Assembly: GCA_021608145.1 (NCBI GenBank) | Contig: JAKIHM010000002.1 | Coordinates: 1-64,000 of the forward strand | Length of the DNA: 64,000 bases | Source of the DNA: Thermovorax subterraneus | GTDB taxonomy: Bacteria; Bacillota; Thermosediminibacteria; Thermosediminibacterales; Thermosediminibacteraceae | Direction: 5' to 3' | Shown here: positions 15,789 through 19,064 of the stretch, piece by piece | Layout: each line of letters begins with the position of its first letter | How positions within the stretch are numbered: the first letter of the stretch is position 1 | The notes under the pieces: generated by a model | The model's database searches: none | Told to the model about the DNA's origin: nothing | What the model saw: the letters and a program-made list of their open reading frames with translations, nothing else | Program-made: the position numbers and the translations under genes

Positions 15789-16532
15789 TTAATCTTGACA
15801 ACCGAATCCCATCTCTTCAAGCAAACTCTTATCCTCTTGTGTGAGTTTCAATTTCTTAAAGAGGTCTGGTCTTTTTTCCAAAGTTCTCCGCAATGCTTCC
15901 TTTCGCCTGAACCTCTCTATTTCCCGGTGGTTTCCGGAAAGCAAAACCTCAGGAACCCTAAGTCCCCTGTAAACCTCAGGCCTGGTGTAGTGTGGGTATT
16001 CCAGAAGACCGCTGCTGAAAGATTCTTCTTTCAACGATTCATTACTTCCTAGTACCCCCGGGACCAATCTAGACGTAGCATCCACTATTGCAAGCGCCGG
16101 AATTTCCCCGCCGGTCAAAACAAAATCTCCCAGGGATATTTCGTCGGTTATTATCGTCTTTACCCTTTCATCTACTCCTTCGTAATGGCCGCATATGAGT
16201 ATTATGTGCTCCTGCTCTGCCAGTTCTCTTGCCATATCCTGGTTGAAGACGGAACCTTGAGGTGAAAGAAGTATAATCTTTCTTTTTTCAGCGTTAACGG
16301 TGCGGGATGCATATTCCACTGCTTCAAAGATTGGTTCCGGCTTCATGACCATTCCAGCGCCCCCGCCGTAAGGGTAATCATCAACTTTCCTGTGCTTATC
16401 TTTCGAAAAATCTCTTATATTCAGGAGTTCTATCCGGACGAGTCCCTTTTCCCTGGCTCTTTTCAATATGCTAACGTCCATAGGCCCCGAAAAAAATTCT
16501 GGGAAAAGGGTCAATATGTGAAATACCAGCAC
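15789..16532 (-). CDS. trmD: tRNA (guanine-N1-)-methyltransferase TrmD
   Basis: TrmD methylates G37 of tRNA and prevents frameshifting. The trefoil-knot SAM site is visible in [21 protein letters not shown] and [20 protein letters not shown]. Length 247 is standard. The GTG start shares one base with the rimM stop (TAGTG), and GGAGGG lies upstream within rimM, so the two are coupled. Confidence 0.97.
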
Positions 16533-17044
16533 TAAAGCATTCCCTCCATAAGTTTGACTGTCATTTTCTTATTTTCAAGGTCTATACTTTTTACTACCTC
16601 CCTTATGGCGGGTATCAATAATTCTCTGCCGCTTTGGAGTTCCACCACGTAAACATCGTTGGCGCCCGTTTTTATTACATCTTTAATACATCCAAGCAGA
16701 ATCCCGTCTTCCTCATTATATACCTCCATGCCTATTATGTCGCAAATAAAATAATGTCCTTTTGGCAGCTTTACCGCGTCTTTTCGATGGACCATGATGT
16801 ATCTATTCCTGAAACTTTCAGCAGAATCCACCGTATCAATCCCCTGCAGTTTTAACACTACAAACCTCTTTTTTAAAAAAATCACCGATTCAATGTCGTA
16901 TGCTTTTAAAGCACCGTCTTCTTCAACGAAAATCGACTTTAACTTTTGATACCGGGTTATATCGTCGGTCAAAGGTTCAATTTTCACTTGGCCTTTAACT
17001 CCCCAAGGGCAAAGCACCTTCCCTATAGTTATATATTCCCTCAA
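16532..17044 (-). CDS. rimM: 16S rRNA processing protein RimM
   Basis: RimM assists 30S head assembly by binding S19. The N-terminal barrel begins [19 protein letters not shown], and a PRC-barrel follows with [16 protein letters not shown] and [18 protein letters not shown]. The only reasonable start is TTG at 17044: an in-frame TGA lies five codons upstream, and no good Shine-Dalgarno is present before it. The leader is the end of the TnpB element, so the native ribosome site may have been lost. Confidence 0.94.
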
Positions 17045-17059
17045 GGGAAAGCCTGGTCA

Positions 17060-17361
17060 TCCAAACTGTGCAAAACTGCAACAGTTTAGACGGCTGGGGT
17101 ATTTTTTACCGCCTTTCAAGTTGCCCCTGCCCCAGCAGGCGGTATTTGGGACAACCATAGCCCCTGCCCCAAGAAGCAGGAACTCGCGCCCCTTACCCGG
17201 GTCTCCCCACTTGCCCCGAATGTAATACTCCCTTCAGGACAGAGATGTCTCTTAAGACTTTCTCAGGGGAGAGTGGCGTTACCACCGCTACCTTGAGAAC
17301 TCGCCAAAGTTTATAGCTTTCGCTATAGGCACCAAGACTTGTTCCATCTAGAGGTCTTGGT
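17060..17361 (-). ncRNA. candidate omega-RNA (TnpB guide RNA) overlapping the 3' end of tnpB
   Basis: On the minus strand a dense set of hairpins begins inside the tnpB frame and continues past its stop. They are an 8-bp stem ACCAAGAC/GTCTTGGT (17354-17361 with 17331-17338), TATAGC-GAAA-GCTATA with a GNRA tetraloop (17312-17327), and two stems CCTGC/GCAGG (17163-17180 and 17126-17139). A 7-bp TACCGCC/GGCGGTA (17107-17113 with 17138-17144) competes with the second CCTGC stem. Last is a 10-bp stem with one bulge around an AAAC loop (17063-17087). TnpB guide RNAs are known to derive from this position. The ends are not determined. Confidence 0.5.
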
Positions 17362-18644
17362 CCCCTCCCTGGCTCACTCCCAAGGCTTTGTAATAGTCTT
17401 ATCGCCCTTTCTATCTCCTGTAGTTGCCTTTTCTTTAGTTGTTTGTTCTTGACCGTTCTATTTACGTACTCTTTTAGTTCTTCCAATTCATCAGCATCTA
17501 ATTCTTTTAGAATTGCCATATACCCTTCGGGAATTTGCTCTTTTAACCCAAGCCCCCTTCTTGCTATGACATACGCTGCTGCCACGTCCTTGCTTATCAT
17601 ATACTGCGGTGCATATTTCAGCATCCCTATCACTGATGTATAGGCAGGATTGACCTCTATGATTTGTATGCCCTTCCTCTTCGCTAAAACCTTGATTTTT
17701 TCCAAAAGCGACCTGTAACCAAAGCTGTGCCTTATCCTCCTCGATTTCCTCCCCGAAAAGTCCCCTCTTTTTCCTTTGTCTCTTATGTCCAATCTTTCGA
17801 TTGCTATTGCTTTTTTCTTTTTTTCTGCTAGCCTTACTACTTCGTGGGCATACTGCCATCTGTAATATTCCCTCTTATTTGAATTGCCACTTGTAAGTTC
17901 GGGCATCGGTATTCTGTCATAACTTGCAAGATTACCGTTCTCATCCGTTTCCGACCACGCTATGTGGTCCGGGTATGCGTTGATGTCTATGCCTATAACC
18001 CCATTTTCTTTTGTTACCGCAACTTCCGGGAAGTTTTCTTCAATCGTAAAGTAAGCATATACCTTCCCGTTTTTGAGCTTTAACTCCACGGAATAAGGCT
18101 GTCCACAAATACTGATTGCCTCAAGCAATTCCTCCCGGCTCTTTCCTTTCTTCCATCCCGCTTGTATGTTTGCATATGCATATTTTCTTTCACCTACGTT
18201 GATTCTAAGTACTGCACTATTTTCATCTATCTCGATCCGTGTATTCAAGTTCCCTTTCTTGCTCTTGTCTCCTCTCGAGAAAAGATTGCCTTTCCTTCTT
18301 TCTTGCCACTCATGTTGCAGCTTCTTATATGCATTTCCGTTTATGTGCCGTTTCTTGAGCTTTTCAAATAAACTCCTGCCGCCAAAGATAACCTTCCTTG
18401 GATTCGCTTGCCTTTCTTTACAGGATTCTAAAACGCTTTTTGCCTTAATTATTGCATCATCTACATACCTCGAATTTAAATTGAAAATCCCTTGCAGTTC
18501 TCTTTTGAGTTCATTTCTGCTTTTACCTTCTAAAAGCCTGTTATATGCGAATCTTGCGCAGGATGACCATCTTCTCATAATGTCTAATACTTCCCGCTTA
18601 TCTTCGCTGCTTTGGAAAATCAGCTTTGCCTGAATTGTTAACAT
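17193..18644 (-). CDS. TnpB-like RuvC nuclease (IS200/IS605-associated), zinc-finger-less
   Basis: TnpB proteins are RNA-guided DNA endonucleases and ancestors of Cas12. All three RuvC acidic residues are visible, counted from the start at 18644: D220 in VIGIDINAYPDHIAW, E283 in AIAIERLDI and D353 in MISKDVAAAYVIARRG. The CxxC zinc finger usually found between RuvC-II and RuvC-III is absent. About the last 70 codons overlap a strongly structured RNA and may not be selected as protein. The start MLTIQAKLIF is chosen for its family-like N terminus; the frame is open to 18746. No TnpA is nearby. It lies between khpA and rimM on the operon strand. Confidence 0.85.
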   Translation of the reverse strand: MLTIQAKLIFQSSEDKREVLDIMRRWSSCARFAYNRLLEGKSRNELKRELQGIFNLNSRYVDDAIIKAKSVLESCKERQANPRKVIFGGRSLFEKLKKRHINGNAYKKLQHEWQERRKGNLFSRGDKSKKGNLNTRIEIDENSAVLRINVGERKYAYANIQAGWKKGKSREELLEAISICGQPYSVELKLKNGKVYAYFTIEENFPEVAVTKENGVIGIDINAYPDHIAWSETDENGNLASYDRIPMPELTSGNSNKREYYRWQYAHEVVRLAEKKKKAIAIERLDIRDKGKRGDFSGRKSRRIRHSFGYRSLLEKIKVLAKRKGIQIIEVNPAYTSVIGMLKYAPQYMISKDVAAAYVIARRGLGLKEQIPEGYMAILKELDADELEELKEYVNRTVKNKQLKKRQLQEIERAIRLLQSLGSEPGRGPRPLDGTSLGAYSESYKLWRVLKVAVVTPLSPEKVLRDISVLKGVLHSGQVGRPG

Positions 18645-18810
18645 GCCTTTACGCACCCCATTGTCAGTTACTACCGCTATAAGATCTCTTGGTAATGCCG
18701 TATATATGTTTTCTTTTTTTGCACACTTAATAATGTCAATTATCATCTAATCGAAATTATACCCTTTTGCATTACTATCTTCAACTGTTGTGACCCTCCT
18801 ATCCTCGAAT

Positions 18811-18836: not shown

Positions 18837-19064
18837 TTATAGAATCTCTACGATTACCCTTTTTCCTTCTTTAGCAGCAGCAGCTTTGACTACGGTTCTG
18901 ATGGCTTTTGCTATCCTGCCCTGTTTCCCGATGATTTTGCCCATGTCATCGGGGTGCACCTTTAATTCAATTATTACTGACTGTTCACCTTCCACTCTGT
19001 TTACAGTCACTTCTTCGGGGTGGTCAACCAATGCCTTTGCGATGTATTCTACTAACTCTGTCAA
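18837..19064 (-). CDS. khpA: KH-domain RNA-binding protein KhpA
   Basis: 75 residues forming a single KH domain with the [16 protein letters not shown] loop. KhpA binds RNA, often with KhpB/Jag, and affects cell division and elongation in Gram-positives. The TTG at 19064 follows AGGAGGAATG. It lies 19 bp after rpsP, the conserved position. Confidence 0.94.

Follow-up and report, generated by a model that had tools for sequence, protein, structure and literature searches.

A tnpA-deleted IS607-family element at the rimM Shine-Dalgarno site of Thermovorax subterraneus encodes a probable RNA-guided TnpB nuclease of a lineage without zinc ribbon

Introduction

The first 64,000 nucleotides of contig JAKIHM010000002.1 of Thermovorax subterraneus (GenBank assembly GCA_021608145.1; hereafter the window) carry a gene for a TnpB-like protein between the host genes khpA and rimM. 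A preliminary description of this DNA reported that the protein has an intact RuvC triad, that the zinc finger found between RuvC-II and RuvC-III in typical TnpBs is absent, and that no TnpA transposase lies nearby; it proposed either a minimal RNA-guided nuclease lineage or a domesticated copy. The locus thus raises the question of whether the gene serves the host or belongs to a mobile element, and, in the latter case, how a TnpB without a zinc finger and without a transposase would act. Here, we argue that it is highly probable that the locus is an IS607-family insertion that has lost tnpA, and that the encoded TnpB, from a ribbon-less lineage, works as an RNA-guided RuvC nuclease that homes by means of the motif GGAGG and a guide.

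Results

The open reading frame (ORF) on the minus strand spans positions 17193 to 18746 and codes for 517 amino acids. Its first 34 codons (18645-18746, minus strand) are an in-frame remnant of tnpA fused upstream of tnpB, and therefore tnpB natively starts at the ATG at 18644, as in the preliminary description. The resulting TnpB (17193-18644, minus strand) has 483 amino acids. It exceeds the curated cut-offs of TIGR01765 (E = 4e-23) and TIGR01766 (E = 5e-16), far beyond chance, and stays below that of NF040570, the curated model of RNA-guided TnpBs (E = 2e-18; 66.8 bits, cut-off 100). As the preliminary description had it, D220, E283 and D353 form the D-E-D triad of a TnpB RuvC domain: D220 and D353 are invariant across 16 close relatives, and E283 recurs in all but one sequence, which is gapped at this position. 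The loss of RuvC catalytic residues that defines TldR, the nuclease-dead TnpBs, was not found. The PADLOC model PDLC01039, labelled Csx1, matches 17193-18644 at 4.8e-70; since the protein is a TnpB, this label is probably wrong.

The only cysteines of the protein are C29, C75 and C180. None lies between RuvC-II and RuvC-III, so that neither the C4 ribbon of typical TnpBs nor a C2H2 finger can be formed there. Pfam PF07282 (TNB/zinc ribbon) aligned with the window TnpB over positions 1-28 of its 60 only, below the cut-off. As a positive control, eight other genes of the same genome matched the model over all 60 positions, and CxxC...CxxC was seen in six of them (the six read out). The reported absence of the finger is thus borne out; the term "minimal" does not fit, because the protein is longer than the canonical TnpBs of the same genome (372-421 amino acids), having lost the ribbon and carrying a C-terminal extension. 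The literature attributes a zinc ribbon to "many", not all, TnpBs, and hence we file the window TnpB as a variant lineage rather than as a typical member.

An AlphaFold2 model of the protein (predicted local distance difference test score 80.9, predicted template modelling score 0.64) places a short helix at residues 336-348, where the ribbon would be. On structure alignment the model matched, over most of its length, Cas12f1 (Z 17.8), ISDra2 TnpB (Z 14.2) and ISFba1 TnpB (8iaz; Z 12.4), and its RuvC part also aligned with RuvC resolvases. The window TnpB is therefore predicted to have the TnpB/Cas12f fold. Sequence matches in the PDB to cytochrome c555 were set aside as spurious.

All the relatives of the protein that were found, from Fervidicola, Caldanaerobacter, Thermoanaerobacter, Thermodesulfobacterium and records named Caldisericum, lack the ribbon. 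Profile search led to further groups: in the D-type, which includes the window TnpB, RuvC-III has its aspartate, and in the H-type histidine stands at that position. In a tree that included six ribbon-bearing TnpBs of the same genome, a branch with a support of 100/99 set all the ribbon-less proteins apart, and the D-type branch had a support of 98/99; the tree is limited by its long branches and its small outgroup of six. From these alignments, the zinc ribbon is missing across the whole clade and not in the window copy alone. The ratio of nonsynonymous to synonymous rates (dN/dS) between copies is 0.11-0.19, including copies that share the deletion of tnpA, and such codon comparisons show that tnpB is under purifying selection.

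H-type TnpBs with the change of the RuvC-III aspartate to histidine (e.g., VPVHCAAALVIGRR) are present in genome G000, at C11:154500-161500 (L047), C11:271500-278500 (L046) and also on C10, C19, C42 and C5. Several of them adjoin a TnpA of the IS607 type that is intact (open frame, 214-227 amino acids). Canonical zinc-ribbon TnpBs beside Y1 transposases, i.e., ordinary IS605 elements, coexist with the ribbon-less TnpBs in this genome (C11:323115-324580 and C11:84015-85470).

The ends of the element were fixed from related copies and from empty sites in sister species, in which GGATAGGAGG directly precedes CTTTCCC. The whole element (17052-18794, minus strand) has 1743 bp, with the left end GTCACAACAGTTGAAG and the right end TTTGGATGACCAGG. 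The empty site reads GGATAGGAGG/CTTTCCCTTGAG, and the filled site of the window reads GGATAGGAGG/GTCACAACAG...GATGACCAGG/CTTTCCCTTGAG. The site between khpA and rimM is empty in three of the five genomes of the genus and is also filled in genome G004, and the rpsP-khpA segment beside the element is conserved in all five. Related copies, many of them truncated, are scattered over unrelated sites of this genome and of the genus, with a protein identity of ~80-95%, and 15 matches to the right end were found in this genome.

The family of the element was read from full-length relatives in other thermophiles (L066 and L069), which carry an intact 197-amino acid TnpA overlapping the start of tnpB. 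This TnpA has MerR and Resolvase domains and scored 226 bits with NF033518 (cut-off 110), i.e., it is the serine recombinase with N-terminal MerR-type helix-turn-helix that characterizes IS607. The TnpA of IS607 uses a GG crossover, and a clean GG junction is a signature of the family (PMC4058570, PMC6188088). Comparison of empty and filled sites (GGAGG/CTTT and CCAGG/CTTT) is consistent with a GG crossover, and no further target duplication was found. The distance from the left end to the tnpB start is 145 bp in the window copy, L002 and L026, versus 627 bp in L060. This alignment of copies shows that the window copy lost tnpA by an internal deletion common to several other copies. The observation that no TnpA is nearby is thus correct, and the internal deletion in an IS607 element explains it without domestication. 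An origin from IS200/IS605 was discarded: Y1 transposases are present in the genome, but the tnpA of the relatives codes for an IS607 serine transposase. An IStron, with rescue by a group I intron, was likewise rejected, as no intron was found in Rfam scans.

At its right end the element has ~230 conserved bp that can be folded into nine helices, two of them pseudoknotted. The candidate ωRNA scaffold (17052-17283, minus strand; ~232 nt, with a double pseudoknot) covers the last ~91 nt of tnpB. The alignment comprises 68 pairs, with 98% of cells paired, and 21 pairs with two-sided changes versus 11.5 in shuffles; none of 500 shuffles reached the observed covariation, and slid controls were far lower. 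Sequence relatedness can inflate such shuffle tests, and the numbers of pairs and of pair types are more robust. The synonymous rate is mostly reduced in the codons under the RNA (e.g., between the window copy and L066 it is 0.23 there, against 1.51), although unevenly between pairs. All the RNA helices, as well as the ORF, are intact in the window copy. An Rfam scan of the window gave no match at the gathering threshold; when the threshold was relaxed for the element, no plausible match appeared either, and the RAGATH-18 RNA, which marks one group of IS607 TnpBs, was not matched downstream of tnpB. The covariation makes the right-end RNA a candidate ωRNA. The predicted guide, CTTTCCCTTGAGGGAATATA (17032-17051, minus strand), lies directly 3′ of the right end and corresponds to the spacer between the Shine-Dalgarno (SD) sequence and the start of rimM plus the start codon region; its length of 20 nt was borrowed from published TnpB guides. 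It is identical at 19 of 20 positions to the empty site of the sister genome G002, beside GGAGG.

The GGAGG at 18795-18799 (minus strand) is the target site of the element and its predicted transposon-associated motif (TAM), and was the SD sequence of rimM before insertion, the empty site being GGAGG-CTTTCCC-TTG. Once three false hits were taken out, 28 of ~37 left flanks were exactly GGAGG, and several others were one base off. At the other end, 56 of 71 distinct right junctions were followed, 2-13 nt downstream, by a start codon with an open frame behind it. Some of these positives are accidental (L002 sits in a peptidase gene), so the strict count, restricted to ATG at 4-10 nt, is safer, and it gave 35 of 71 (49%). 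On equal criteria the GGAGG sites of the window gave 28% (loose) and 11% (ATG only); the enrichment has a binomial p<1e-15 with the junctions treated as independent, which is only roughly true. The target genes include rimM, rho, metG, hisI and the genes for prephenate dehydratase and glucokinase. Two H-type elements (L046 and L047), with the left flank GAAAGGAGG and the right flank TGAAGCCGATG or GCGGACCGTG, have the same GGAGG target and a CCAGG right end. The element family therefore repeatedly inserts between the ribosome-binding site of a gene and its start codon. Characterized RAGATH-18 IS607 TnpBs use AGGAG or GAGGG as TAM (PMC11061315); in view of this, GGAGG would be a natural TAM here, and judged by its flanks it is likely the TAM of the window TnpB. 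In a partial coverage of the literature, no paper tying TnpB TAMs to SD sites was found.

The idea that the right end provides a substitute SD was considered and rejected: predicted pairing with the anti-SD at rimM falls from -13.0 to -3.1 kcal/mol. Over 40 sites the mean falls to -5.1, compared with -3.4 for random 21-mers, and with the pairing near background after insertion the right end restores no strong SD. Copies L028 (genome G001), upstream of metG, and L003 (genome G000), upstream of rho, directly precede the likely start codons of these usually essential genes and leave CCAGG in place of the expected strong SD. The copy at L073:1247-1300 seems to lie inside a sequence resembling an S-adenosylmethionine riboswitch (GAAAGAGCCCGATGAAACCCGGCAACC), recognized by eye only.

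The element is flanked by rimM (16532-17044, minus strand; TIGR02273, 150 bits), whose SD is now separated from its TTG start, and by khpA, a KH-domain protein gene named by sequence inspection (18837-19064, minus strand). All three genes lie on the same strand, in agreement with the sense orientation already described. A sigma-70-like promoter is predicted in the left end (18756-18784, minus strand; TTGAAG-N17-TATAAT, 10 of 12 matches). It is a consensus match only, as promoter hits in the left-end region are no more frequent than in shuffles; related left ends contain a similar sequence.

Discussion

The RNA-guided nuclease lineage without zinc finger put forward in the preliminary description finds support in the clade-wide absence of the ribbon, the D-E-D triad, the predicted Cas12f/TnpB fold and the adjacent covarying RNA. 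We propose that the promoter-like sequence of the left end would drive tnpB, the RNA and probably also the downstream gene. The tnpB transcript would be processed to a ωRNA of ~230 nt, whose 3′ end, the guide, would be host sequence past the right end. The ribonucleoprotein (RNP) would recognize GGAGG plus a match to the guide in the start-codon region, i.e., the empty insertion site, and cut it, and repair from the element-bearing copy would restore the element. The GG of the right end and of GGAGG would be the crossover dinucleotide of the serine transposase, which would account for the clean insertion. The window copy has no transposase of its own, and any further movement would need mobilization in trans.

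Several points weigh against this reading. Neither the window copy nor the rest of this genome was found to carry an intact cognate tnpA; the nearest TnpAs, those of H-type elements, are 42-49% identical to that of L066. The window protein differs by ~10-15% from those of the intact full-length copies in the genome, so that the amplification is not recent. A single-sequence search gave no convincing match to a PDB chain, and the profile search reached a Cas12f only weakly. The length of the guide and the 5′ end of the RNA are predictions, the bias in the left flanks could stem from the target choice of TnpA rather than from TnpB, and the scheme relies on inferred steps, namely ωRNA processing, cleavage, TAM requirement, homing and mobilization in trans.

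One alternative concerns GGAGG itself. The bias could reflect a target preference of TnpA combined with the purging of intragenic insertions, which is to be expected, with TnpB having another TAM or none. We consider this rather unlikely, since published IS607 insertions show a preference for (G)GG only (PMC6188088), whereas five bases are nearly fixed here, and since the TAMs of related IS607 TnpBs are similarly G-rich (PMC11061315). Start codons are enriched even above the GGAGG sites of the window, an excess that intragenic purging could also yield. That the tnpA-less copy is a decaying relic, forming no functional RNP and persisting by drift, would accord with the loss of tnpA and with the numerous copies that are truncated or frameshifted in these genomes. 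It is improbable, however, given the intact ORF and RNA helices and a dN/dS of 0.17, 0.14 and 0.18 between the window copy and three copies with the same deletion, L002, L026 and L029.

A TnpB adopted by the host, TldR-like or otherwise, and kept in the translation operon for a role such as regulating rimM is the domesticated copy of the preliminary description. The sense orientation in a core operon, the missing tnpA, the purifying selection and the occupied site in G004 all fit it. Nevertheless, related copies lie at unrelated sites within one genome, three species of the genus have no insertion between khpA and rimM, the triad is intact, unlike that of TldR, and copies at other sites show selection of equal strength. 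Domestication is thus largely refuted and, in our judgement, very improbable; nor is the gene an unrelated core gene present at this site in all relatives, a case that the preliminary description had allowed for.

A broader generalization may be offered tentatively, with somewhat more doubt than belief: all ribbon-less IS607 TnpBs would use the SD sequence as TAM and target, homing to the ribosome-binding sites of arbitrary genes, essential ones included, with start-codon regions as guides, and the loss of the ribbon would mark a distinct nuclease architecture with a short helix instead. These data bring together, as one coherent clade, thermophile proteins that are likely RNA-guided nucleases and lack the typical TnpB ribbon; their predicted guide RNA, TAM and guide are directly testable. 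The data also suggest that such mobile elements land recurrently at ribosome-binding sites, and raise the question of how cells survive the loss of the SD before metG, rho and rimM.

Among the closest known systems are the "TnpB-related" proteins of TIGR01765/TIGR01766 from thermophilic Clostridia (Thermoanaerobacter/Caldanaerobacter), the window TnpB's own family, with relatives 59-91% identical; an earlier description of them as a zinc-finger-less IS607 lineage with ωRNA and SD target was not found, but may exist. With IS607, IS1535 and ISC1926 the family shares a serine tnpA overlapping tnpB, the GG crossover and no target duplication beyond GG, but the window copy has lost tnpA, the target is GGAGG instead of (G)GG, and TnpB has no zinc ribbon. 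ISFba1 and the RAGATH-18 TnpBs (PMC11061315) are likewise IS607 TnpBs with a G-rich TAM (AGGAG/GAGGG; here GGAGG, predicted), a right-end guide RNA with pseudoknots (here a candidate) and the same predicted fold. However, the window RNA matches no Rfam model and overlaps the ORF, while theirs is separate, and the window TnpB is longer than ISFba1 TnpB (387 amino acids), to which it has no significant sequence match in the PDB. With ISDra2 TnpB and Cas12f1 (Z 16-18 for the latter) the window TnpB has in common the predicted whole-chain fold and the RuvC D-E-D triad, and as in IS605 TnpBs such as ISDra2 the RNA overlaps the 3′ end of the ORF; it differs from them in the missing ribbon, in the serine rather than Y1 transposase partner, and in a GGAGG rather than AT-rich target.
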